From the NCBI RefSeq assembly GCF_014695715.1, contig NZ_JACJOT010000006.1:744001-808000 (forward strand): DNA of 64,000 bases. The letters run 5' to 3'. Shown in pieces: positions 9,293-29,345 of this stretch. Position numbers and translations under genes: made by a program. Position 1 is the first letter of the stretch. Every line of letters starts with the position of its first letter. This DNA is from Microcoleus sp. FACHB-68. Its GTDB lineage: Bacteria > Cyanobacteriota > Cyanobacteriia > Cyanobacteriales > Oscillatoriaceae. The notes beneath the pieces are model-generated. The model was not told where the DNA came from and searched no databases. It was given only the letters and a program-made list of their open reading frames with translations.

Positions 9293-9505
9293 TTAGTTAA
9301 CTTGCCACCAGCCTAGCAACGGGCCAATGAATAGAACCGTCACCCAGATAGCAACTAGGGTTCCAATGCCGATCCAAGTAACGCGGTTGCTCAGTTTCAT
9401 AAACTGCCCTGCTTGGCTTTTGGTAATCGGCAACCAGGGTAAAACATTAGACTCTTTGCCGTAGTTTTCACCGAGTGCGGCTTTACGACGTTTAGATTCG
9501 CCCAT
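9293..9505 (-). CDS. DUF2839 family small membrane protein
   Basis: A 70-residue cyanobacterial protein. The N-terminus MGESKRRKAALGE is the family signature and is strongly basic, so it likely faces the cytoplasm. One membrane helix follows at about residues 42-65 (VTWIGIGTLVAIWVTVLFIG) and ends in GWWQVN. Length matches the family. Function is unknown. It is monocistronic, about 190 bp downstream of the DinG-like gene's start-side neighbourhood. Confidence 0.88.
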   Translation of the reverse strand: MGESKRRKAALGENYGKESNVLPWLPITKSQAGQFMKLSNRVTWIGIGTLVAIWVTVLFIGPLLGWWQVN

Positions 9506-9697
9506 AACTTTAGAGAAGCAATTTGTTTAGTTCAGATTGATGATAACGCTTACATTTGCGCCAGAAGCGAGTTGCTTAACAAAATTACAGTTACCGGGCC
9601 GGCTGTAACATTTTCCTATATTCTTGATGGGTTAGAGATGGCTATAAGCCTTTATCGGTAAGGGCGCAAAGCACAAGACAGTCGCTCGCTCCAAAAC

Positions 9698-11281
9698 TTA
9701 ATAATTCGGTTGAGCAAATAAACTGGCATCAAGATAGTCAATTCTGGCCAAGGGACTCAGGGCCGCGAGGACTTGATGGCCATAGCTGCGGTGGAGAACA
9801 CGAGTATCGAGGAGGGCGACAACCCCTTGGCGTTCACGCACCGGCATGATCGCGCGTTGCAACTCACTTAACGCCACCGGCAACAGGTATAAACGAAACC
9901 AGTCTAGGCGCTGTTGCTTGTAGTAAGCTACCCGACCGGCAACCAGAGGGTTTTCTAGAGAGGGAATAGGTAAAGTCGCAATAGCGAGTAATTGGGGGGC
10001 CGGCAATACTCCCTGATGCTGACGCCAGAATTCCCAGCCGGTGACTAAGATGCCATTGCCATCGAGACAAGTTTTTTCCACCTGAACCCGCGAACCAAAC
10101 TCAGCGGCTAGCACGGCACCGACCTGAGCTTTAAGGGGCACATCACCCACTAAAACCACTGTGAGTCCGCCCGCCAAGGCGCTGGCATTCAATAAGGTGC
10201 GGATTTCTTGGATTAAAGCGTCTTGAAATTGGGGCGTGTTGGGCAGAGGCAGCCGGTCTGGTAAATACAGATGAATTAATTCATTTTGCCGGTCTGGGGA
10301 GAACTTCAGGCAAGTCATCTCTGGCAACCCAACCCGCTGCCGATAAACGGTTGCCTCGGTTTCTAAATCTACATTTCCGCCAATTAACACCACCGGCTGC
10401 TGTGGCCAAATTTTGCTTAAAGCTGAAGCAACCTCAACCGGGCCGCAGTACAACGTAAATTGACCCTGCCGGCGCTCAATTTCCGCCCAGCTCAACTGTC
10501 CCTCCGTTTGCCAGCGTTGCCAAAAGTTGCGCCACGCAGCCGGCAAACTCGAAAAATCCGCGATAGAGGGCGAAGGCTCAATAGCTTGGGCGTTCCCGTA
10601 CCCCGCCGGCGTTGGAGATTTCTGTAGCGATAGGAAAAGACGCCTCAAAATTTCTTGTTCTGGAGCGTCGAGCAGATTACATTCGTAGGGATTAACAGGA
10701 TGCTGAAAGAAAGCCCGTGTCAGCCGCACGCGGGCGTTGCGGATAGCATCTGCGCGATGTGGACACGCCAGCATCAGTTCATTCCAGTCAGCCGGTTGAA
10801 TGCCGGCAGTTAACTGCTGGTGCGCCCATGTTTCCAGATCATCAACGCCATCAATTACGGTAGGAACGCCAGTTTGAAAGCGGTTCCCTTGTTCCAGCCG
10901 GTCTGCCAGCCAAGCTTCGGGGGAAGTGATTAGCAGCCCTTGGAAGCCGTCATAAGGCCAGTGATCCCCGGTGCGGATCGCTTTTGGCGTTTTAATCCAC
11001 TGTTGCAGTTGGGGAATTTCTACCATAAGCAAGCGCTGCCGCACATCTTCTCGTGCGACTAAGATTGCCGGTTCAGGCCACATTAAAACCGGCATCAAAT
11101 AGCTCAATCGATATCGTCCGTGAGAGCCACCAGGAGCAATGCCAGTCTGCATCAGGGCGCTACGTCCCAAGCGCAACGCCCGCGCCACCAACCGCGCCAT
11201 CGTCAAATGGTGAGGCCAGTAAGGTTCGCCTGACGAGCGCAGAAAAGTACGGAGTGAGTTATGGACTTCTACCTCGATCAC
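9698..11281 (-). CDS. DinG-like helicase C-terminal domain protein with degraded ATPase motifs
   Basis: A 527-residue protein related to XPD/DinG superfamily 2 helicases. The region expected to hold Walker A (about residues 43-60) reads QTGIAPGGSHGRYRLSYLMP and lacks the GKT/GKS core. The DEAH-box position reads VIDGVDDLETWA instead of DEAH. The C-terminal part still shows the family ending with a Q-x-x-R-like helix (ELQRAIMPVRERQGVVALLD, then RVLHRSYGHQVLAALSP). The four Cys of the iron-sulfur cluster are not evident. I infer a non-helicase, perhaps DNA-binding, role. The start is GTG; the ATG-less N-terminus MIEVEVH looks conserved in related cyanobacterial proteins as I recall them. Confidence 0.75.
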   Translation of the reverse strand: MIEVEVHNSLRTFLRSSGEPYWPHHLTMARLVARALRLGRSALMQTGIAPGGSHGRYRLSYLMPVLMWPEPAILVAREDVRQRLLMVEIPQLQQWIKTPKAIRTGDHWPYDGFQGLLITSPEAWLADRLEQGNRFQTGVPTVIDGVDDLETWAHQQLTAGIQPADWNELMLACPHRADAIRNARVRLTRAFFQHPVNPYECNLLDAPEQEILRRLFLSLQKSPTPAGYGNAQAIEPSPSIADFSSLPAAWRNFWQRWQTEGQLSWAEIERRQGQFTLYCGPVEVASALSKIWPQQPVVLIGGNVDLETEATVYRQRVGLPEMTCLKFSPDRQNELIHLYLPDRLPLPNTPQFQDALIQEIRTLLNASALAGGLTVVLVGDVPLKAQVGAVLAAEFGSRVQVEKTCLDGNGILVTGWEFWRQHQGVLPAPQLLAIATLPIPSLENPLVAGRVAYYKQQRLDWFRLYLLPVALSELQRAIMPVRERQGVVALLDTRVLHRSYGHQVLAALSPLARIDYLDASLFAQPNY

Positions 11282-16109: not shown

Positions 16110-17678
16110 CTACTGAACTTCAATGGAATAAAAGCCTCTGATGAAATCAACAACAATATTAAGGGGCGGGATAGCAAACTGTGAGGAATTTCCCTGGTCG
16201 GCGCTCGTCTTCTGATTTGTAGTGCTCGCTGAATTCATAAACCGTTTTCCAAAACTCGGATCGTGATAAACACTCAAACTTTGATCACTAGAATTCAGCA
16301 AAATTGTGTGAGTGGGAGCGTTGAAGAAACTAGCTCTCCGCTCCATAGTGGGAAAAATTTTTGACAGTTCAATCGCATGAACTTGGTTAAGTGTTTGACT
16401 CAGTGTTGTGCTTAACTGCTGGATGCGCCTGAGTTCTGGGATACTAAGGTGGCTAGTTGCGTGCGCTCGGATCTGCTTGATCAGTGTGATAATATTTCGT
16501 TGAGTCGGCGCAGCATTTTCAAAGGGAAGAATCGCCACATAAGCGGTGGGAAATAATTGCTCGTCGTTCTCTACCCGAAATGTGAGTACGGTTCTGCGGT
16601 AGCCAACTGCAATACTCGGAGGTTGGCTCAAGCCTGAATATTGCAGAGCAATTTGATGGTAAGCATTTGCTAAGGCAAAATTCGCCTCCTGATCCAGCGG
16701 TGCATCAATGACAATTCGCACAGTCGGGGGCGTTTGATTAAAAAACTTTTTAGAGTCTTCTGGCTCAAAGCGGTGGAGTTGCGTGTGATCGCCATGCGGA
16801 CTCACATCAACCCACTCACAAATCATGCCGTCTGTTTTCAAGCCAAATCGTGAAACCCCATAAAGTTTTGCGCCGGTTAAGGTGGCACCGCTGAGATCGG
16901 CCCCCATCCATTCCGCTCGGATCAAATTGGCTTGAGTAAGATCGGCATGAACTAAACTGGCATTTAATAAATTGCTGTTGCTCAAGTCTGCGCCAATTAA
17001 ATTTGCCCCACTCAATTTGGCATCACTGAGGTTGGCCCATTGGAGATTGGCACCGCTGAGAGCAGCCCATCTCAGGTTAGCTCCACTCAGATCAGCTCCA
17101 CTGAGGTTGGCGCGATTAAAGTTGACGTGTCTAAGTTCGGTGTTGCTTAGATTCGCGCCGCTGAGGTCGGCTCCACTGAGGTCGGTTTGGTTCAGTTTGG
17201 CTTGCTCTAAATTGGCACCGACAAGGGAGGCACCTCTGAGATCGGCTTCACTTAAGTTGGCTCCACTCAGGTTGGCTTGCCTGAGTTTGGATTCTCTTAA
17301 GTCTGCTGCGTTGAGGTTCGCCTCGATCAGGTTGGCTCGGCTCAGTTCGGCGCGGATCAGCTCAGCTCGAATGAGGGACGCTTGAATGAGTTCGGCGTCG
17401 CTAAGGTTCGCCCGCACGAGGTTGGCTACATTGAGAATCGCACCGTTTAATTTCGCTTTGCTGAGATTGGCTCCACTCAATCGGGTGACATTGAGTTTGG
17501 TGCCGGAGAGGTTGGCACCGCTCAAATTGGCTCCGCTCAGATTGGCGATACTCATGTTCGCCTGACTTAAGTTGGCTCCACTCAGGTTGACTCTGCTCAG
17601 GTTAGCTTCACAGAGGTTAATGCCGGTAAACTCTCTTTCGCCGGCTGCATATCTCTTTAGGAGTTCCTCAACTTCCAT
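16110..17678 (-). CDS. Pentapeptide-repeat protein (paralog 2 of a tandem pair)
   Basis: A 522-residue protein. Residues ~15-270 are about fifty uninterrupted A(N/D)LSX-type pentapeptides, which fold into a right-handed quadrilateral beta-helix. The remaining ~230 residues form a separate domain containing FGLKTDGMICEWVDVSPHGD, a KKFFNQTPPTV segment and a mixed alpha/beta tail. The same two-part architecture is in the adjacent paralog, 62 bp upstream. The frame opens at ATG 17690, but ATG 17678 aligns with the start of the paralog and is preferred. Pentapeptide proteins in cyanobacteria are many and mostly unassigned; there is no evidence here for gyrase mimicry. Confidence 0.88.
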   Translation of the reverse strand: MEVEELLKRYAAGEREFTGINLCEANLSRVNLSGANLSQANMSIANLSGANLSGANLSGTKLNVTRLSGANLSKAKLNGAILNVANLVRANLSDAELIQASLIRAELIRAELSRANLIEANLNAADLRESKLRQANLSGANLSEADLRGASLVGANLEQAKLNQTDLSGADLSGANLSNTELRHVNFNRANLSGADLSGANLRWAALSGANLQWANLSDAKLSGANLIGADLSNSNLLNASLVHADLTQANLIRAEWMGADLSGATLTGAKLYGVSRFGLKTDGMICEWVDVSPHGDHTQLHRFEPEDSKKFFNQTPPTVRIVIDAPLDQEANFALANAYHQIALQYSGLSQPPSIAVGYRRTVLTFRVENDEQLFPTAYVAILPFENAAPTQRNIITLIKQIRAHATSHLSIPELRRIQQLSTTLSQTLNQVHAIELSKIFPTMERRASFFNAPTHTILLNSSDQSLSVYHDPSFGKRFMNSASTTNQKTSADQGNSSQFAIPPLNIVVDFIRGFYSIEVQ

Positions 17679-17740
17679 CAGGGTTACCATTCCAATATTT
17701 CTTACAGTTAAAACTCTGTTCCTAAGGGAGGTTTAGTTGA

Positions 17741-19264
17741 TTACTGACTCGGTAAAAAATGCAAGCCTTGTATAAAACTAATCACTACACTTATAGGCGG
17801 GAGGGTAAATTGCTGGCCTTCCGTTAAAGTGCCGGCAGCAAGATCGACCACTTCAGAGCTGCTCATCCAGCGTTTGCCAAACCCCGCGTTGTGGTGGACA
17901 TCTAATGTGCGATTCCCAGAATTGGTGACGATAGTCAGTGTAGGCGCTTGGAAAAACTTTTCTCGTTTGATCAGCCGTGAAAATGTTTCTACTTTTTTAA
18001 TTTCTTGCAGCTTTCCCATCGCTTGATTGAGGAGATTACTGATTTCTGGGGAGTCGATCATTTGCACTAAATGAACAATTTTTTCTTGATTGATTAGCGC
18101 ATCCTTAAAGGGAAGGATAGCGACATAAGCTGTGGAAAATAATCGCGTATCGTTACTTATCCTAAAGGTTAATGTTGTTCGGCGACCGCTCACTTCTATA
18201 TTGGGAGGGTGGATCATCGCCGGATATTGGTGAGCGATTTGATGGTAGGCAACAGCTAAGGCTAGATGAGCGTCAGGGTTGAGGGGGGCATCAATGATGA
18301 TTTTGACGGTTGGCAGTGTTTGGTTGAAAAACTTTTTAGATTCTTCAGGGGTAAGCCGGTAGATCTGAGAGCGATCACCGTTCTCGCTCATGTCAACCCA
18401 TTCACAGATCAAGCCTTCAGTTTTTAGCCCATAACGTAATACTTCATACAGTTTTGCGCCGGTTAAGGTGGCTCCCGATAAATCGGCTCCCATCCAATCC
18501 ACTTCAATCAAATTTGATTGGCTTAGATCCGAGTAAACTAAACTGGCATTAAGTAAGTTGGCGCTGCTTAAATCTGCCCCTCTTAAGTTCGCTCCGCTCA
18601 ATTTTGCTTCACTTAAATCTGCCCATCTCAGGGTTGCCCCACTTAAATCTGCCCATCTCAAATTAGCTCCACTGAGGTCGGCTCCAATGAGTTTGGCTTG
18701 AGAAAGATTGGCGCGTCTGAGTTCTGCGTTTCTAAGATTAGCTCCACTTAAATCGGCACCCCTTAAATCGGTTTCTCTGAGGGTTGCTCGCTCTAAGTTG
18801 GCTGATTTTAGGGAGGCATTGGTGAGATCCGCTTCGCTCAAGTTTGCTCCACTCAGGTTTGCTTGCCTGAGTTTGGCTTCTCTCAAGCTGGCACCGTTGA
18901 GGTTCGCTTCGCTGAGGTTGGCGCGGCTCAATTCCACCCGAATCAGTTCAGCCCGAATTAAGGCAGCTTGAACGAGCGTAGCATCGCTGAGATCGGCGCG
19001 GATCAGGTTTGCGACGTTGAGATCGGCACCGTTTAGATTGGCCCCGCTGAGATTGGCACCATTGAGTTTGGCGACGTTGAGTTTGGCATGACTTAAATTT
19101 GCTCCACTTAGATTTGCACCCCCTAAATTGGCGATACTCAGGTTGGCCTGACTCAAATTAGCTTCACTTAGATTGACTCGACTCAGGTTGGCTTCACAGA
19201 GGTTAACAGCAGTAAAGTCCCTGACTCCAGATGCGTATTTTTGTAGGAGTTCCTCGGTTTCCAT
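17741..19264 (-). CDS. Pentapeptide-repeat protein (paralog 1 of a tandem pair)
   Basis: A 507-residue protein with the same layout as its downstream neighbour: a pentapeptide beta-helix (residues ~15-270) followed by a ~230-residue domain with YGLKTEGLICEWVDMSENGD, KKFFNQTLPTVKIIIDAPL and a conserved TAYVAILPF strand. The two proteins can be aligned end to end, so they arose by tandem duplication. The C-terminal domain is more diverged than the repeats. They are probably cotranscribed. The function is unknown; the C-terminal domain, not the repeat, is where a specific activity should be looked for. Confidence 0.88.
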   Translation of the reverse strand: METEELLQKYASGVRDFTAVNLCEANLSRVNLSEANLSQANLSIANLGGANLSGANLSHAKLNVAKLNGANLSGANLNGADLNVANLIRADLSDATLVQAALIRAELIRVELSRANLSEANLNGASLREAKLRQANLSGANLSEADLTNASLKSANLERATLRETDLRGADLSGANLRNAELRRANLSQAKLIGADLSGANLRWADLSGATLRWADLSEAKLSGANLRGADLSSANLLNASLVYSDLSQSNLIEVDWMGADLSGATLTGAKLYEVLRYGLKTEGLICEWVDMSENGDRSQIYRLTPEESKKFFNQTLPTVKIIIDAPLNPDAHLALAVAYHQIAHQYPAMIHPPNIEVSGRRTTLTFRISNDTRLFSTAYVAILPFKDALINQEKIVHLVQMIDSPEISNLLNQAMGKLQEIKKVETFSRLIKREKFFQAPTLTIVTNSGNRTLDVHHNAGFGKRWMSSSEVVDLAAGTLTEGQQFTLPPISVVISFIQGLHFLPSQ

Positions 19265-20890: not shown

Positions 20891-22273
20891 TTACACTTTA
20901 CAAGTATCGAGGCGAGAGAAGATGGCCGGCGACATACCACGAAGAGACAGAAGAGACAAACGTGCTAAAATAATTTTTCTCAGCTTTCCTTTCCTTGTTA
21001 CAAAAGCGGGGAAGTGGCCTTGTTGTGGGTTGGTATTAAATTGTAGCTCGTCATAATTCTGCCAGGAGTTGTTCACACGCCACCCCACTCCCTCTCCAAA
21101 CGCTTCCCAAATTTTTTTATCGTACTCTTTAGTTCCACCTAGAGATTGATAAATGCGCTTCTGCACAGAAAAGCCGAATTGTCCTTTACTGTATTTTACC
21201 CAAAGCTGGTCTATCGTGCGGAGGTCAGTACAGGGAAAATTATCGATGTCTTCAACTCTCAGCAAGCCTTCTTTTTTTCCGGTGACAGCTTTCGCCATCA
21301 CTTGTGCTGTTTCTTTATCGGCTTCTTTCCAGTTCCCAGCTTTTAAGTAATCCCGCAGTTGGCAATAATCTATACCTTTTTCTGAAGGGAGATCATCAGT
21401 GTCTGATTGAAATAATTTCACACCCTCCCGCTCTGAAGGGAGATTACCAGTGTCTGATTGAAATAATTTCAACCATTCCTGCACTGACTGAGGGCGATTT
21501 TCTGCCTCTAGCGCCATCCCTCCCAAAATTGCTTGATTCACCGGCTCACTAATTGTCTGATTGAAATGTGCCGGTGGCTGTAACGAATCCCTAATAATTC
21601 TGTTAAAAGCAAAAGGCGGCACCCGCCCCGTCAGCAAGTAATAAAGCGTTGCTGCTAAGGCATAAACATCGGTAAACTCACCCCGCCTTGCTTGGTCGTC
21701 ATACTGCTCAATGGGTGCATAACCTGCGGTAAGTAAGACAGTATGAGTCTGAGTCAAATCGGGAATAAACTCTCTGGCTAGGCCAAAATCAATCAGAACG
21801 GCTTCGGAACGATGAGAACACACCATAATATTTTGTGGTTTCACATCCCGGTGCAGCAAACCTTTATCGTGGACAATTGTTAGTGCTTCACCAATTTGCT
21901 GGATATATTGCAAGGCTTCCATTTCTGCCAAAACACCACAAGTTTTGACACGTCGAGATAAATCTTCCCCCTCGATATATTCCATTGCAATGCAGGGAAG
22001 CGACTCGTGATGGAAGACATTTTCAATCTGGACAATGTGAGGGTGCCGACATACAGCTAGCCGCAGCGCCTCATCCCGAAAGTCGTGTTTATATTTGTCT
22101 CGGAAATCAGCGAAATCTGGGTTATCCATCACCTCATCTTTTAGCGTTTTAATGACAACCCGCTTACCCTGTCTGTCTTTGGCGAGATAGGTGATGCCAA
22201 AACCACCCTCCCCTAGTTTCTTTTCAATAACGTAGCGATTGCCATATAACTGGTGCCCAGGATGCCAAACCAT
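20891..22273 (-). CDS. Serine/threonine protein kinase with C-terminal GUN4 domain
   Basis: A 460-residue kinase. Residues ~10-270 are an Hanks-type kinase: P-loop LGEGGFGITYLA, VVIKTL lysine, HRDVKPQN catalytic loop, DFGLA, and APIEQYDD in place of APE. A short linker contains a tandem 17-residue repeat built on LFQSDT-x-x-LPSE. Residues ~305-460 form a GUN4 domain (DYCQLRDYLKAGNWKEAD; W-x-K-YSKGQFGFSVQ), a fold that binds porphyrins in chlorophyll synthesis regulators. The normal ending FSRLDTCKV is present, but about 25 unusual residues (RKGKLRKIILARLS and on) precede it. No transmembrane helix. It follows the DUF350 gene by 96 bp on the same strand. Confidence 0.92.
   Translation of the reverse strand: MVWHPGHQLYGNRYVIEKKLGEGGFGITYLAKDRQGKRVVIKTLKDEVMDNPDFADFRDKYKHDFRDEALRLAVCRHPHIVQIENVFHHESLPCIAMEYIEGEDLSRRVKTCGVLAEMEALQYIQQIGEALTIVHDKGLLHRDVKPQNIMVCSHRSEAVLIDFGLAREFIPDLTQTHTVLLTAGYAPIEQYDDQARRGEFTDVYALAATLYYLLTGRVPPFAFNRIIRDSLQPPAHFNQTISEPVNQAILGGMALEAENRPQSVQEWLKLFQSDTGNLPSEREGVKLFQSDTDDLPSEKGIDYCQLRDYLKAGNWKEADKETAQVMAKAVTGKKEGLLRVEDIDNFPCTDLRTIDQLWVKYSKGQFGFSVQKRIYQSLGGTKEYDKKIWEAFGEGVGWRVNNSWQNYDELQFNTNPQQGHFPAFVTRKGKLRKIILARLSLLSLRGMSPAIFSRLDTCKV
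21369..21470 (-). repeat. In-frame tandem duplication of about 51 bp in the kinase linker
   Basis: TCTGATTGAAATAATTTCA occurs at about 21402-21420 and 21452-21470, each preceded by a GAAGGGAGATYAYCAGTG segment. The period is about 50-51 nt, and the protein repeat LFQSDTGNLPSE / LFQSDTDDLPSE shows that reading frame is kept. It lengthens the linker between the kinase and GUN4 domains by 17 residues. Confidence 0.8.
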
Positions 22274-22369: not shown

Positions 22370-23236
22370 TCAAAATGCCCAAGCAATTAGAAAAGAAGCC
22401 GCAATATAAGCAAACGCTTCAATTAAACCGGCTCCTAAATTTGGCACCTCTTGATTCACAATTTCATCAGATATTTTTACCCCTGGGACTAATATCAAAT
22501 CAGCTAACCAGCGAATGGCAATCAGGGAAAGTAAGCAAAATACTAAAATTAATCCATACTGACTAAAACTGACAACCCAGCCTTCAAACTCTGGGGAAAA
22601 TGCCACCCGAACAATATTGCCGGTGGCAATTAATAAGCCGGCAAGTGCGACTCCTGCGGCGGGGTTATTGCGTTTTTCGATTTCTCCAAACACATCGTAT
22701 TTTGTGACGATTGGGTAAACAACACTTACCAAAACCAATACTGCTAAACCCATTAACCAGCAAACAAAACCAACCAGCCAACTGCCGCTATCTCCTGCCA
22801 GCGCAGCGTTAAGAATTAGCCCATTTGCAATGTGACTGCCGGCTTCTACAGCAGCAGCCCCAACATTCCGTTCTTGGATAATTTCACGCACACAATCAAA
22901 TCGACGCAAAATTAAGCGATCAGCAGCCCAAGCGCCCGCCAGCATCAACAAAATAACCGTCGCACCATAGGATGCTAAATTCAATAATTTGTCTTGCCAA
23001 GCTACTAAGTTTTTGTCTAAGGCACCCCCCAATGCGAGAACGATACCGAGATAGTAACCCACTAAGGCAATGGCAACGGCTGGATTATCTTTAACAAACA
23101 GTTCCAGATTTAATTGGATTCGCCGGAATAGCTTTTGGTAAGCAAATTGCCCTAGCCAAAACACGGTAAAACCCACAGCTAATTCCAGAATAATTAGCCC
23201 TGATTGATTGAGTCTATCCATCATCCATTGGTTCAT
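22370..23236 (-). CDS. DUF350 family membrane protein (duplicated)
   Basis: A 288-residue integral membrane protein with about eight helices in two DUF350-like halves. Each half carries a charged motif in a membrane context: VKDNPAVAIALVGYYLG (~residues 48-64) and IEKRNNPAAGVALAGLL (~184-200). DUF350 proteins such as YjfL occur next to PspA-, polyamine- and ATP-grasp-type genes in many bacteria, but their activity is unknown. Its ATG overlaps the stop of the FemAB-like gene (ATGA, 23233-23236), so the two are translationally coupled. It is the last gene of the four-gene cassette. Confidence 0.88.
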   Translation of the reverse strand: MNQWMMDRLNQSGLIILELAVGFTVFWLGQFAYQKLFRRIQLNLELFVKDNPAVAIALVGYYLGIVLALGGALDKNLVAWQDKLLNLASYGATVILLMLAGAWAADRLILRRFDCVREIIQERNVGAAAVEAGSHIANGLILNAALAGDSGSWLVGFVCWLMGLAVLVLVSVVYPIVTKYDVFGEIEKRNNPAAGVALAGLLIATGNIVRVAFSPEFEGWVVSFSQYGLILVFCLLSLIAIRWLADLILVPGVKISDEIVNQEVPNLGAGLIEAFAYIAASFLIAWAF

Positions 23237-24297
23237 TTGCTATCTCCTTCGAGGTTGCGTAGCAGACTAATCAGCGTATCGGCTAGGCGCTCATAAAAAA
23301 AGTAATCATGAGCGCCAATTGTCGTCACCGGCACTCCCCCAAATTGACTTTTAAACTTAGAAAAATTCGCATAAGCATGATTCGGTTCGCGACTGAACCC
23401 ATAAAAATCATAAACAGTGCAACCCCGTGCTTTTGCTTGTTGCATCGCAGCCCAATGTAGAGCGTAGGTTGCCATCATTTGCCGGTGTTCAAAACTGCGC
23501 CCACCATAAAGATATGTGGCGCGATTTCCCCAATATACAACTAAGATTGCTGCTAATACTTTTCCTCGCCAAGTTGCTAAGCCAATTTCTGCCATATTAG
23601 CGGCAAATAAACTTTGACAAAGGTTAATAAAAAATCCGTAAGGTTCGCCAAAAAATTGCTGTCGCTGAACTGTTTCCCAAAAAATATCGTAAAATAATGG
23701 AATTGCTTGTGAGTTAGTGGTAAATTCAGTTGCCACACCATGCCGGTTACTCAGTCGCAAATTGTAACGACCTTTGGGTTTCATCGCTGCTAAGATTTCT
23801 GCCTCATTTGGGCGCAAATCGATGAGGAGAGTTTCAGAAGGTAGTAAATCTGCCGGTGCCCTGACAAACCCTTCAAAACAAGCCGGTTTTTCAGTCCATA
23901 TCGGTTCAATCCGCAGGGCAATTGCACCCACTTCTTTTGCTAAGTTAGCGGCTGTTTCTTTGAGTAGTTGTATTCCTTCATCCGCATAAGCCGGTGGAAG
24001 TATTGGGCCACCGGCAGCGATTAATAAATTTGCTTGGCTTGAATGGGGATAGTAATAGAAAATGCACCCACCCACTAAGCTTTTATCTAAAAATAAACCG
24101 TAACGAAAGGTTTTGTACCCTTCGAGTTCCTTGAAATCCGCCCATGCCCAAGACTGCATAAAACAGCCTGCCGGCAGAGCTTTAACGAGACTATCCCACA
24201 AATCGCGTTCTGCTAAATTTAGTTGCCTGATTCTTAATGATATCTTCTTTTTGACAATAAGATTTTGTTCAGGTGAACCTGTTAGCTCATTCATCAT
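23233..24297 (-). CDS. FemAB/FemX-like GNAT-fold aminoacyltransferase
   Basis: A 354-residue protein of the FemAB superfamily, whose best-known members add amino acids from aminoacyl-tRNA to peptidoglycan stem peptides. Visible family features are LPAGCFMQSWAWADFKELEGYKTFRYG near the N-terminus, the MKPKGRYNLRLSNRHGV helix, and the second-GNAT end YDFYGFSREPNHAYANFSKFKSQFGG. The gene's longer frame starts at TTG 24345, but two ATGs at 24297 and 24294 begin inside the end of the upstream gene and are preferred. That gives an 11-bp overlap with the spermidine-synthase-like gene. Cyanobacteria lack classical Fem bridges, so the acceptor here may be another amine or lipid. Confidence 0.85.
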   Translation of the reverse strand: MMNELTGSPEQNLIVKKKISLRIRQLNLAERDLWDSLVKALPAGCFMQSWAWADFKELEGYKTFRYGLFLDKSLVGGCIFYYYPHSSQANLLIAAGGPILPPAYADEGIQLLKETAANLAKEVGAIALRIEPIWTEKPACFEGFVRAPADLLPSETLLIDLRPNEAEILAAMKPKGRYNLRLSNRHGVATEFTTNSQAIPLFYDIFWETVQRQQFFGEPYGFFINLCQSLFAANMAEIGLATWRGKVLAAILVVYWGNRATYLYGGRSFEHRQMMATYALHWAAMQQAKARGCTVYDFYGFSREPNHAYANFSKFKSQFGGVPVTTIGAHDYFFYERLADTLISLLRNLEGDSK

Positions 24298-25756
24298 TGC
24301 TGCTATCCGATGGGTTAAAAATGTTATAAAGCCAGCCTCCTCCAATTCCTATCATAACTAACCCCACAATCTTAAGTTCCCAGTTAATGTAGCCGTCTGT
24401 ATAATAGACGCTAGTACCCGAAGAATATCCACTACTCGTTCCTGAAGAATATCCTTTGGCAAATACTGCATCTGGCGTCAGTAGGTTTGCCATTAACAGC
24501 GTGACTGATAGCATCATTAAAAATTCAGCGGTTTTGGGAGGAAGGTTTACAATGGGCTGGCCGGCACGAATTTTTTCAGCTAATTGTTTGAGTTCACCTG
24601 CAATCTTTGGCGGAAGTTCCTGAGAACGCTCTAACAGAGTATTTAATAGACGCGAAAGATCGATTTCTCCTAACAGATGCCTGAGATAAGCTAACCCTTC
24701 TCTTGTCATTTTAGGGCTGTGATAGCGATGCTGCACCGGCAGCAATTTAGTAATATTTGGTTGAGCATCAGGTGAAGCAGAAGATTCATACATTTGCTCT
24801 AGCCATGCCTGCGCCATTGATTCCAGCTTGAGCAAATCACGAGAACCTAATATCGCCGTCCCAGATTCCTGAATCTCTAGAAAATCTACTGTGGTGCCGG
24901 CATTCTCTTTCTCTCCCAATTCAAACGAAGGATTAAGCAAATAATAAAATAGCTGGGGACACTCCAGTGTATGAATCGTCACATCATGGCGACTCCTAGT
25001 AATTTCCTCTGAAAATACAAAAGTTTGAAATAACTTTTCGTGAGTTATTGTCTGTAAATCTTCAGGAAATACGATAACTTCTATCTCAGACCGAAGAATT
25101 TGTGCCTGAGAACCCAAAAAAAAGCCCCAGTTTCCATAGCCATGACGGTGAAAAGAAGGAATCTCTAATTGTAATGGCTTGGCTTTCAATCCAGCAGATA
25201 ATAAAGTTTGATACAAACACCAAAAACCGTTTGAGCGATTTTCAGGGGAAACCCCGTTGGTGCTGATAGTTCCCCCTGGCATGAGAACCCGATTGATTTG
25301 TTGAAACCATTCCCGACTGTAGATAGTTGTATCTTCTGGACAAGTCGGATAAGTAAAATCGCAAATGATAGCGTGATAGGAATTATCTGCAACCGTCGAG
25401 ACAAACTCTAAGGCTTCTTGACTGTAAACTGTTACACGCTCATTTTCTAAGCTGCCGGCATTGTAAGGCTTAAAAGCCGTGGTGCCGAGTTCTAAAACTT
25501 CCGGATTGCAATCCACTAAATCTATATGGCTGACTTGCGAAAACCGTAAGACATCCCGTGCGGCTAATCCATCCCCGCCGCCACAGATGAGAACACGCAG
25601 ATCGTTTTCTGGGAATCTTTGAAGGGCTAAAGAAACCGTTGGAATAACCAAATACTCGTGATAAAGTGCCTCATCAGCCGTATCAAACTGCAAATCGCCA
25701 TTGATATAGAAAGCGAGGCCGTTCGCGTGATGTTCAATAAATAGGGAAGTTGCCAT
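24287..25756 (-). CDS. Spermidine-synthase-like methyltransferase-fold protein with C-terminal membrane tail
   Basis: A 489-residue protein. Residues ~1-250 resemble aminopropyltransferases: QFDTADEALYHEYL gate region and LICGGGDGLAARDVLR for decarboxylated-AdoMet binding. The loop that reads D-S-S/T-D-P in spermidine synthases is here CDFTYP, keeping the first Asp but replacing the second by Tyr. Residues ~250-400 are helical without a known family. The last ~90 residues carry a hydrophobic segment (LMMLSVTLLMANLL), a Gly/Ser/Tyr-rich linker and a membrane helix (IVGLVMIGIGGGWLY). It is 7 bp downstream of the DUF4178 gene and overlaps the FemAB-like gene. True spermidine synthesis is doubtful. 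Confidence 0.85.
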   Translation of the reverse strand: MATSLFIEHHANGLAFYINGDLQFDTADEALYHEYLVIPTVSLALQRFPENDLRVLICGGGDGLAARDVLRFSQVSHIDLVDCNPEVLELGTTAFKPYNAGSLENERVTVYSQEALEFVSTVADNSYHAIICDFTYPTCPEDTTIYSREWFQQINRVLMPGGTISTNGVSPENRSNGFWCLYQTLLSAGLKAKPLQLEIPSFHRHGYGNWGFFLGSQAQILRSEIEVIVFPEDLQTITHEKLFQTFVFSEEITRSRHDVTIHTLECPQLFYYLLNPSFELGEKENAGTTVDFLEIQESGTAILGSRDLLKLESMAQAWLEQMYESSASPDAQPNITKLLPVQHRYHSPKMTREGLAYLRHLLGEIDLSRLLNTLLERSQELPPKIAGELKQLAEKIRAGQPIVNLPPKTAEFLMMLSVTLLMANLLTPDAVFAKGYSSGTSSGYSSGTSVYYTDGYINWELKIVGLVMIGIGGGWLYNIFNPSDSSNDE

Positions 25757-25763
25757 CTGTTGA

Positions 25764-26408
25764 TTATCCGAATATTAGCAGATAAAGTCCCACAAGTAGG
25801 AACAAAGATGCTGCCACCACTTGCGCCACGGAGATTGAACGCGAATCTTGTGTTTGAGTGGGAGTAAAAACTCCTTTTTCGATATCAGAAAACTCTTCTG
25901 GTTTTACGACTTTAGACGTGTAAACGTGTAATTCTCTATCCGGCCATGCTTCAATCGCTAAATTCCACTGGTGCGAACTATCCCAGTAATCCCAAGTGAT
26001 GCGAGATGTATTTTCCTCGTCTCCCTCATAACTGCCTTGAGTTTGAGATTCAAAATAGTAGTTTTTTCCAAAGCAGCGCAATTCTGGGTAAGGTGCTTTT
26101 TGCCCTTGCATATCCTGCCAAAGATTGGGCAGCACGTTATCTTCAGAGTTTGGCTGAAAAAGAGCGGGATGAGGAATTTCTGAGGCGAGATACCAGTGTA
26201 CGAGTGTTTCTGGATTTTGAGGATCGACTTCTCGAAGCAAGTAATATTCTGTACCGCCTCCAGATCGCAGTAACCACTCGGCTGTTTCATAGCCATTGGG
26301 GTCTTGGTAGGTACTGTAATCGGTAACCTGCCATTGAAGACCGTGACATTTTAAGCGATCACCGGCACGTAACTGTTCGAGTTGATCTTGAATAGAAACA
26401 GGAACCAT
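25764..26408 (-). CDS. DUF4178 domain protein with C-terminal membrane anchor
   Basis: A 214-residue protein, first gene of the four-gene cassette. Residues ~8-180 are a soluble beta-rich DUF4178 region with LRAGDRLKCHGLQWQV at the start and WDYWDSSHQWNLAIEAWPDRELHVY near the end. A single C-terminal helix (VVAASLFLLVGLYLLIFG) anchors it in a membrane with the domain in the cytoplasm. DUF4178 genes are recurrent neighbours of DUF350 and spermidine-synthase-like genes in bacteria (from memory of comparative surveys). Function unknown. Confidence 0.85.
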   Translation of the reverse strand: MVPVSIQDQLEQLRAGDRLKCHGLQWQVTDYSTYQDPNGYETAEWLLRSGGGTEYYLLREVDPQNPETLVHWYLASEIPHPALFQPNSEDNVLPNLWQDMQGQKAPYPELRCFGKNYYFESQTQGSYEGDEENTSRITWDYWDSSHQWNLAIEAWPDRELHVYTSKVVKPEEFSDIEKGVFTPTQTQDSRSISVAQVVAASLFLLVGLYLLIFG

Positions 26409-26657: not shown

Positions 26658-27818
26658 CTATCTAGCCGCAATTTGATTCCAGACTAGAATAATCTCTTGC
26701 AAATTTTTAGGTAGCTGGTCTTGAATGCTATCGGCATAGCGAGTGGTGCCGGCAGATCCAGTAAACGTCACCGTGATAAAATCAGCAGAGCCTTGGACGG
26801 CTGGATAATTCAAACCCTTAAATTGAGAAAAACGCTGCCGCTCTAAAAGTTTCTGAAACTGTTTCACTTGTTGGGTAGAAAGCCGGCGAATCTCCGTTTC
26901 ATTGGTTGCGCCATTGCCATTAATCTCAACCTGAACGACTCGCCCATTCTGCTTCAGAATTGTTGCGTAGGTACGACCGGCAAAACCACCACTTGAAATC
27001 GCCCGAAAAACCTCATCTTTAGCCAAAGCCGGCGGAAGTTCACTCCTAGGAATCTGCGTTGCTTTGATAGATTTGCTGCCGCCGGCATCACCGATGTTGC
27101 TAGCAGACTCATCCAGCACAACCACAGAACCCTTGTCATTGGTGCGATAGACCCACTTTTCTTGTCCGCTTGCCGCTTCTCCATCGTCCCTGACAACCGT
27201 CACTTCCCAACCGGGTACAATCGCTTCGGTGCACATCACTTCAGGCTTATTGATACCGAGACAGCCATTAGGCCAATCCCGGCGTTCCGCCTTCACAATT
27301 AGCAACACATCAGCCGGCACCCCCAACCGCTTGGATAAATCCCGCTTCACGGCATCGCCAACCGATCCGGGCACATTCACCCCAGTTCCAGGCGGGGTAT
27401 TGGGCATCCGTACCGTCTTGCCGGTGCTATCGGTGCGGTAAATCCACTCTCTGGCACCATCAGAGACAACAACTTGCCAACCTTCGGTACGCACTTGAGC
27501 GCATAATTCCTCAGGACGGGGCGCTCCCAAGCATGGATCTGGCCACGTTTTGCGTTCTGCCTTGACGATGCGAAGCCGGCCCACAGGAATGTTTTGCTGG
27601 CGAGACAAGTCTTGGCGCACAGCGTTCGCAATTTTAGCCGGCAACCTGTTGTTGCGATCTGGGCGATTGTTCAGGTTTCCCGGTGTGGGTTGGGCTTGTT
27701 TAGGGGCAGATGTCGCCGCATCCATTAATGTGATGCCGGCACCTAAAGACAGGATGCCGGTTAGCACTAAAGCCGAGACAAATTGAGAGTGCCGGTGGGA
27801 ATTCTTAATTAATTTCAT
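26658..27818 (-). CDS. Secreted protein with two copies of a Cys-containing repeat domain
   Basis: A 386-residue exported protein. The longer frame starts at 27917, but the ATG at 27818 begins MKLIKNSHRHSQF and a signal-peptide-like helix (VSALVLTGILSLGAGI). Two copies of a ~75-residue unit follow (residues ~55-130 and ~140-225): each has DLS-x(7)-VP or IPVG, IVKAER-x-WP-x-x-CLG, a second Cys 10 residues on, a W-x-V core and W-[IV]-YRT. The Cys pair probably forms a disulfide in each unit. Residues ~265-386 are a different alpha/beta domain (FAGRTYATILKQNGRVVQVE). A gene with a single copy of the unit lies 620 bp upstream. Function unknown. Confidence 0.82.
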   Translation of the reverse strand: MKLIKNSHRHSQFVSALVLTGILSLGAGITLMDAATSAPKQAQPTPGNLNNRPDRNNRLPAKIANAVRQDLSRQQNIPVGRLRIVKAERKTWPDPCLGAPRPEELCAQVRTEGWQVVVSDGAREWIYRTDSTGKTVRMPNTPPGTGVNVPGSVGDAVKRDLSKRLGVPADVLLIVKAERRDWPNGCLGINKPEVMCTEAIVPGWEVTVVRDDGEAASGQEKWVYRTNDKGSVVVLDESASNIGDAGGSKSIKATQIPRSELPPALAKDEVFRAISSGGFAGRTYATILKQNGRVVQVEINGNGATNETEIRRLSTQQVKQFQKLLERQRFSQFKGLNYPAVQGSADFITVTFTGSAGTTRYADSIQDQLPKNLQEIILVWNQIAAR

Positions 27819-28165
27819 AACTGAAAAAGGATATTGAGAATTAGGTTGCCTAGCAAGTTTGAAGCAGTGGTTAAACGTGAATAATTTTCCGAACATTTCA
27901 CCAGACATTACAGACACATTGACGGCTTTTTTGTTCCATCTAAGCTACTGAATTCAGGTGGGCGAATTCCCGACCAGGAAAAACCATCGAAAAAATATGC
28001 TGTAACTTAAGAATCAAGAGCAGAACTATTCTCAGTATAAAGTCGCCTAATTGAATTCCACATCGCCTGTTCGATTCATCCATTCAGGTGAATTTTAAAA
28101 ACTACAGGAACAAACACCTTATTTTTAAAGTCGTGCGAATGCTATTGGCAACCTACTACACATCT

Positions 28166-28438: not shown

Positions 28439-28918
28439 TCACTGGCGAGGCGATGAAGGCAATTCACTCACAATTTCTGTGAACACCGGCATAACTGTTC
28501 CTTGATGTAGCTTGACAAGAGAGCCGGTTGCATCTGTACGATACACCCACCGGCGAGGGCCACCGGCAACAATGACTTGCCATCCAGATACCCCTTTGGT
28601 GCAATCAGCACGATGCTCTTGGAGTTCCAGACACTCATTTCCCCAAGTATGAGGTTCTGCATGGACGATCCGCAGTGCCGAGGCCGGCATTTGTGCTCGT
28701 TCCGAGACATCCCGTAAAACAGCGTTGGCAACGGAGGCAGAAACGCTAGCACTCACCGGAGAAGTCCTCGAAAAAGGGCCGGTGGTACGCGGCAAGGTGG
28801 AACCGACGCTGAAGTATAAAATTGCAGTGAGCACAACCGCCAAGACAAATGGACGAGGCTGGGTAGCAATTGGCTCGGCGGTGGCTTCGGTAGAACTACT
28901 GGGAATAATAGATTTCAT
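28439..28918 (-). CDS. Secreted or membrane-anchored protein with one Cys-containing repeat domain
   Basis: A 159-residue relative of the protein encoded at 26.7-27.8 kb. Residues ~25-42 (FVLAVVLTAILYFSVGS) form one hydrophobic segment. Residues ~60-145 are one copy of the shared unit: ANAVLRDVSERAQMPASALRI, VHAEPHTWGNECLELQEHRADC, GWQVIVAGGPRRWVYRT. The two Cys keep the spacing seen in the larger protein. It lacks the extra C-terminal domain. The ATG at 28918 is preferred to the TTG at 28933. The pair probably arose by duplication and both have their own terminator. Function unknown. Confidence 0.78.
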   Translation of the reverse strand: MKSIIPSSSTEATAEPIATQPRPFVLAVVLTAILYFSVGSTLPRTTGPFSRTSPVSASVSASVANAVLRDVSERAQMPASALRIVHAEPHTWGNECLELQEHRADCTKGVSGWQVIVAGGPRRWVYRTDATGSLVKLHQGTVMPVFTEIVSELPSSPRQ

Positions 28919-29345
28919 AGTCAGCGCCTTCAATCAGAAATATCAACTAAAAGTTCAATAATTAAAATTCAGTTGCACCCTGATTCTCACTGGCTCCGGA
29001 ATACCCTAAAACTTTTTCCCGGGGGCTTGCGCTGTTATAAGTTTTGGTAGAATATATACTTATTGCGCTTAAGCAAGCGCAGAAAAAACTGTTTATCAGA
29101 AATTTGACGCTTGCATACAGGGTATTGGTTCCGTAAACAGTCTTATAGATCTAAGACTTCACGAACCCTTTCTTCTTTATTCTCCTGCTCTGCCATCAAT
29201 TTTTACACCCAGAAAATACTGAATAATCGTCAGTTACAAACCCTGACAGATTACAACTTGTTAAGCGCCTGCTCATTAAGCAAATGCTCTCATTGATCAT
29301 CTGGCGCTCAACATCCTATACGACTGAGGGGAAAAATAAGCACAC
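28919..29345. other. Intergenic region with a GC-rich hairpin
   Basis: About 430 bp. TGCGCTT/AAGCGCA at 29063-29081 forms a perfect 7-bp stem with a 4-nt loop and sits about 145 bp upstream of the minus-strand gene start at 28918, in its promoter or leader region. The rest is AT-rich, with no supported gene. Confidence 0.4.

Follow-up and report, generated by a model that had tools for sequence, protein, structure and literature searches.

A cyanobacterial gene cassette joining a SpeE-like protein with an altered acceptor motif to a FemAB-like ligase and DUF4178 and DUF350 proteins

Results

Four contiguous genes in the window

The window (the whole stretch of 64,000 nucleotides that was analysed) comes from a cyanobacterium with a genome of 6.5 Mb. 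At positions 22370-26408, the ORF list and Pfam matches, all four of which exceeded the curated cut-offs, identified four minus-strand genes coding for a DUF4178 protein, a protein of the Spermine_synth family (hereafter SpeE-like), a FemAB-like protein and a double DUF350 protein:

25764-26408, (-): DUF4178 protein, 214 aa, beta-rich domain with a C-terminal membrane anchor (Pfam 5.3e-17)
24287-25756, (-): SpeE-like aminopropyltransferase, 489 aa (Pfam 2.1e-22)
25346-25360, (-): D133-F-T-Y136-P137 of the SpeE-like protein, computed from residues 133-137 with the ORF start at 25756(-); the first Asp is kept and the second is replaced by Tyr
23233-24297, (-): FemAB-like double-GNAT ligase, 354 aa from the ATG (Pfam 3.2e-32)
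22370-23236, (-): DUF350 (YjfL-type) membrane protein with two DUF350 units, 288 aa (Pfam 4.5e-46)

The FemAB-like gene starts with ATG, and there is an alternative in-frame TTG at 24345. An earlier note on this DNA had described a 7-bp gap, an 11-bp overlap and a 4-bp ATGA overlap between the four minus-strand genes, and we reproduced these coordinates and spacings. Its list of parts held for the four genes but overlooked a SpeD partner and two predicted membrane helices in the SpeE-like protein. Scanning the window for Rfam families and for tRNAs gave no match, and a promoter and terminator scan detected nothing in excess of shuffled sequence.

Directly downstream of the DUF350 gene and on the same strand lies a Ser/Thr kinase-GUN4 fusion (20891-22273, (-)). 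We rejected it as a conserved partner, because it was found near the cassette only in the window's genus and in a few other loci (L074, L073/L086). Upstream of the cassette are a 419-aa protein (26658-27917, (-)) and, beyond it, a shorter ORF (28439-28933, (-)); neither protein matched a Pfam family, and their conservation beside the cassette was confined to the genus. Two adjacent proteins encoded further away (16110-17690 and 17741-19264, (-)) resemble each other; their N-terminal parts look like pentapeptide repeats, and their C-terminal parts are similar too.

The cassette genes occur together as a unit

The earlier note had taken the genes for a single coupled operon. In agreement with this, of 60 genomes sampled from the order, 7 had the full cassette, contiguous and with the same gene order, and none had only a part of it; the four genes were not apart in close relatives. 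Because the same 7 genomes carry all four genes contiguously and none carries only some of them, the cassette is not a chance assembly. Cassette-type SpeE and FemAB were adjacent in these 7 genomes, with DUF4178 upstream and DUF350 downstream. Their co-presence in the 60 genomes gave a Fisher p of about 3e-9, a value that treats genomes as independent and ignores shared ancestry.

A scan of the collection with the FemAB alignment yielded 34 named loci; together with the window and the genome matches, and minus one duplicate (L073 = L086), this made 40 distinct loci. The search for FemAB-SpeE neighbours covered the cyanobacterial phylum and, in addition, plasmids outside it; SpeE was absent beside FemAB in both plasmid FemAB relatives examined. 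DUF4178, SpeE and FemAB were together in 39 of the 40 cyanobacterial loci carrying cassette-type FemAB, the exception (L097) having only remnants of DUF4178 and of the SpeE C-terminus before FemAB. In that locus, the remnant at 9447-9920 is a DUF4178 fragment fused with the end of SpeE, and the FemAB behind it is intact. Over 34 loci, the median distance was 3 bp between DUF4178 and SpeE, about 30 bp between SpeE and FemAB, and 2 bp between FemAB and DUF350. The flanking genes varied among lineages, whereas the cassette unit was constant. Judged by FemAB, the closest named relative of the cassette was that of Microcoleus vaginatus WJT46-NPBG5 (92% identical), which makes Microcoleus or a neighbouring genus the probable source of the window.

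An intact DUF350 gene came next after FemAB in 26 of the 40 loci; in 6 others it was split, truncated or interrupted by the end of a contig, and in 8, some of these at contig ends, it was not found. With about one locus in three lacking DUF350 or having it in decay, DUF350 is not an obligatory platform. The membrane platform proposed in the earlier note therefore stood only in part: the enzymes are predicted to be cytosolic, DUF350 is a membrane protein and DUF4178 is predicted to be tail-anchored (helix 194-213 in the model), but DUF350 is not always there.

The AlphaFold2 model of DUF4178 had a mean pLDDT of 88.5, with the C-terminal helix at 194-213, and Foldseek found nothing for it at E 0.001 or better. 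We rejected an assignment of function from the fold, since the best rows in VIA-align, those of EF-P domain I with a Z of 6.3 and an rmsd of 2.5 over 62 residues, were in the range of common barrels. DUF4178 has no conserved lysine at the modified-lysine loop of EF-P. For the modelled barrel, domain I of EF-P and of eIF5A ranked highest (Z about 6), and both of these proteins receive amine modifications.

The FemAB-like protein is nearly alone in its family in these genomes

The FemAB-like protein matched its Pfam family with 112 bits (cut-off 24) and was the sole PF02388 protein in the window's genome. In the sample of the order, a single genome without the cassette (G035) had a PF02388 protein over the cut-off. 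Being nearly the only PF02388 protein over the cut-off in these genomes, FemAB is not an ordinary wall FemX that lies there incidentally, and the earlier view that it is the unusual member of the set was borne out. Closest by profile was S. aureus FemX (6snr, E 2e-22). Invariant residues in 37 FemAB sequences include K175-G-R-Y-N179 and F315-K316, the latter aligned with the F-K of S. aureus FemX. This lysine may occupy the position of the catalytic Lys305 of FemXWv. Cyanobacterial walls are not known to have Fem-type bridges.

In an alternative that we consider unlikely, FemAB is a wall enzyme that attaches an amino acid to the stem peptides of peptidoglycan, and the SpeE-like protein modifies the same wall peptide or its lipid carrier. 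The closest solved structures are indeed wall FemX enzymes. However, the protein scored far below the cut-offs for the wall FemX equivalog (NCBIfam NF047883; 48.1 bits, cut-off 500) and for the XrtA/PEP-CTERM FemAB (TIGR03019; 60 bits, cut-off 260), and in the order it occurs almost only alongside cassette SpeE. Furthermore, FemABX-type enzymes, which use aminoacyl-tRNA, also serve natural-product and small-molecule pathways (PMC12945691).

The SpeE-like protein has lost one acceptor aspartate

In the model of the SpeE-like protein (whole-model mean pLDDT 78), a catalytic domain (about 1-260) is followed by an extra helical region and then by a membrane part, in which two predicted membrane helices (407-425 and 458-480) flank a Gly/Ser/Tyr-rich loop. 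The model aligned with the T. thermophilus aminopropyltransferase 1uir with a Z of 28.6 and an rmsd of 3.0 over 269 residues; as modelled, the catalytic domain has the aminopropyltransferase (SpeE superfamily) fold. Residues 424-435, after the first C-terminal membrane helix, read N-L-x-x-P-D-x-V-F-x-K-G, and a stretch resembling this one was also present in two genomes outside the class.

Y32, H33, GGGD62G and D133 were unchanged across 38 cassette SpeE sequences, which thus retain the GGGDG motif that binds decarboxylated AdoMet (dcAdoMet) and the first Asp of the acceptor loop. The second Asp of DxxDP was lost in all 38, being replaced mostly by Tyr and otherwise by Phe, Cys or Ser. Elsewhere it was intact: canonical cyanobacterial enzymes have DLSDP, cyanobacterial 7TM-type enzymes DFPDP or DLPDP, and the Novosphingobium and Alteromonas relatives DFPDP and DLPDP. 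In the spermidine synthase of Plasmodium, the donor amine and the near amine of putrescine are bound by the first Asp and the far amine of putrescine by the second, both residues being called invariant (PMC4356361). Because the second acceptor Asp is lost, cassette SpeE is probably not a normal spermidine synthase. We infer from this loss that the acceptor is probably a compound other than putrescine.

We also considered, and rejected, a defence system: PADLOC gave no match for three of the proteins and only weak ones, via the Rossmann domain, for SpeE.

A SpeD homolog adjoins many cassettes

Clustering of all cassette neighbours disclosed one further recurrent gene, coding for a homolog of SpeD (S-adenosylmethionine decarboxylase) of ~120 aa. 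It adjoins 24 of the 40 cassettes, in 20 cases within 160 bp, and this strengthened the polyamine-type link that the earlier note had claimed. The neighbour SpeD scored 64-93 bits with Pfam AdoMet_dc in the six representative loci scanned, and the Ser of the ESH self-cleavage site, the His and the Cys were all kept in the alignment. These are presumably the functional residues of bacterial AdoMetDC. On this sequence evidence, the cassette-adjacent SpeD is a predicted member of the AdoMet decarboxylase family with its self-cleavage Ser and catalytic His and Cys. Li et al. reportedly described a polyamine-independent AdoMetDC in 2019.

Three arrangements of SpeD were found: convergent downstream (most loci), co-directional upstream (seven) and co-directional downstream (L103, a canonical-looking copy). 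This diversity, including the canonical-looking copy, suggests that SpeD joined the cassette more than once. In L093, L098, L105 and L106, a protein of ~350 aa (DUF1611 in L098) is encoded upstream of SpeD and the cassette.

The window's genus has no SpeD at the cassette but one canonical SpeD elsewhere; the window's genome has, besides this ordinary SpeD, a separate, canonical SpeE. In five cassette genomes (G021, G026, G039, G048 and G058), the cassette-side SpeD was the sole AdoMet_dc match (60-74 bits) and cassette SpeE the sole Spermine_synth match found. Cassette SpeE would then be the only visible user of dcAdoMet, if this is made, and thus appears to be its sole user in these five genomes. 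Among the sampled genomes without a cassette, none had a complete SpeD with so low a score (in G030, whose genome is incomplete, the match is split); the association of low-scoring SpeD with the cassette had a p of about 4e-6, shared ancestry being ignored. SpeD likewise adjoins the gene set of two genomes with 7TM-type SpeE (G016, G044).

These data bear on the idea that the cassette is an ordinary operon for a spermidine (or agmatine) aminopropyltransferase, with the membrane and FemAB genes as passengers. The fold, the donor motif and the adjacency of SpeD fit such an operon, and some enzymes accept unusual polyamines (PMC11107197). The idea is nevertheless improbable, because an Asp described as invariant in spermidine synthases (PMC4356361) is missing from 38 of 38 sequences, the window's genome has its separate canonical SpeE, the linkage to FemAB is retained across distant lineages, and the SpeE-like protein has predicted membrane helices.

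Another reading, in which the SpeE-like protein would be a methyltransferase using AdoMet or a scaffold without catalytic activity, and the SpeD homolog would decarboxylate ornithine or arginine, is quite improbable. The SpeE-like protein did give weak matches to methyltransferase profiles, and substrate change is known among SpeD homologs, which may be ornithine or arginine decarboxylases instead (PMC10407285). Yet GGGDG, Y-H-E and D133, the residues holding the aminopropyl amine (PMC4356361), are kept; L103 recruited a canonical-looking SpeD; and the 7TM-type relatives adjoin speD as well.

A SpeE-FemAB pair outside the class

Two genomes of the same phylum, outside the class and from different families (G096, G105), have a long SpeE directly before FemAB, and neither DUF350 nor DUF4178 was matched next to this pair. 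Their SpeE is also devoid of the second Asp (DLTWP, DFTLP). In a tree of the SpeE domain, the cassette and G096/G105 sequences fell on one side of a 100/99 branch and the 7TM and canonical sequences on the other, although long branches meet at this split (a warning of the tool). SpeE-FemAB looks like the core of the cassette, and its presence in two genomes outside the class suggests that the pair is older.

Comparison with known systems

The frame of SpeE, SpeD, DUF350 and DUF4178 is that of a published kind of envelope operon, of which the cassette is a cyanobacterial variant with a GNAT-type amide ligase. Ravi and colleagues (PMC11237479) described operons that combine a 7TM-fused spermine synthase with DUF350, DUF4178, PspA, CesT/Tir and a lipoprotein, and operons in which an ATP-grasp (glutathionylspermidine-synthetase-like) ligase occurs with AdoMet decarboxylase and DUF350; FemAB is not named in these operon descriptions. 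The cassette resembles the PspA/CesT operons in bringing Spermine_synth, DUF350 and DUF4178 together. It differs from them by the presence of FemAB, by the absence of PspA, CesT/Tir and band-7 (neither PspA nor CesT/Tir was found among the cassette genes, and SpeD was the only further recurrent neighbour), and by a SpeE that has a C-terminal membrane part and is without the N-terminal 7TM and the second Asp. Plasmids of Novosphingobium and Alteromonas carry sets of aminopropyltransferase, speD, DUF350 and DUF4178 genes. With the ATP-grasp operons, the cassette shares an AdoMet decarboxylase, an amide ligase and DUF350 in one neighbourhood, but its amide ligase is a GNAT-fold FemAB and an aminopropyltransferase is present. 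The FemABX ligases (Weissella and S. aureus FemX; VlmA, PacB, Orf11; PMC12945691) share the Pfam family and the aligned F-K lysine region, whereas cassette FemAB is below the NCBIfam equivalog cut-offs and lies in the context of SpeE, not of wall genes. Similarly, canonical SpeE has the same fold, donor motif and first Asp, while cassette SpeE always has the second Asp of DxxDP replaced and a predicted membrane anchor. None of the papers searched combined FemAB, spermidine synthase and operon. The published operon description includes neither FemAB nor the loss of the Asp nor the exclusivity across whole genomes.

A stress-sensing membrane complex, with enzymes mainly sensing the level of polyamine or dcAdoMet, has been proposed for the related PspA-linked operons (PMC11237479), which have DUF350 and DUF4178 in common with the cassette, but is very unlikely here, as PspA, band-7 and CesT/Tir genes are missing from the cassette and two enzyme active sites (SpeE and FemAB) are apparently intact.

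Discussion

We start from what was observed: the genes are linked, the acceptor motif is lost, SpeD is associated with the cassette, and in five genomes SpeD and SpeE are the only members of their families that were found. We favour, with a probability of about 0.5, a reading in which a membrane-tethered aminopropyltransferase with a non-standard acceptor and a FemAB ligase of the aminoacyl-tRNA type form one modification or biosynthetic module. SpeD, encoded next to the cassette in most relatives and elsewhere in the window's genome, would supply decarboxylated AdoMet. The SpeE-like protein, held at the membrane by its C-terminal helices, would move the aminopropyl group onto an acceptor other than putrescine, and the FemAB-like GNAT ligase would use aminoacyl-tRNA to couple an amino acid to an amine that belongs to the same product; the donor chemistry and the use of aminoacyl-tRNA are those expected from the respective families. 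FemAB may serve as the amide ligase, a part played by an ATP-grasp enzyme in related published operons, and DUF4178 and DUF350 may form the membrane part, to hold, sense or move the product. We infer the roles of DUF4178 and DUF350, as well as the action of SpeE and FemAB on one product; FemAB could act on a separate substrate. The product could be a membrane lipid, a wall peptide or a protein. Several points weigh against the reading: the window's genome has an ordinary SpeD and SpeE and no SpeD at the cassette, SpeD homologs may instead decarboxylate ornithine or arginine, and DUF350 is missing, decayed or cut off in 14 of 40 loci, a few of these at contig ends. Tentatively, the cassette may stand for an undescribed cyanobacterial class of metabolite or of membrane modification: a compound that a pathway of SpeD, SpeE and FemAB, no longer serving spermidine synthesis, would both aminopropylate and aminoacylate at the membrane.

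Such a module may account for genomes in which a single gene pair of the polyamine type is retained although the ordinary pair is missing. It offers a testable case, in which an AdoMet decarboxylase and an aminopropyltransferase are the only copies detected and have sequences pointing away from ordinary spermidine synthesis. The cassette is compact and occurs in named genera, some of them cultured, and it provides an entry point to the roles of DUF350 and DUF4178, which are widespread in bacteria.

A last observation concerns the ordinary cyanobacterial SpeE, which carry GGGEGA (e.g. L003, G000:C13:82129-82674), a motif reported for thermospermine synthases (PMC11107197). The product of these enzymes may therefore not be spermidine alone.
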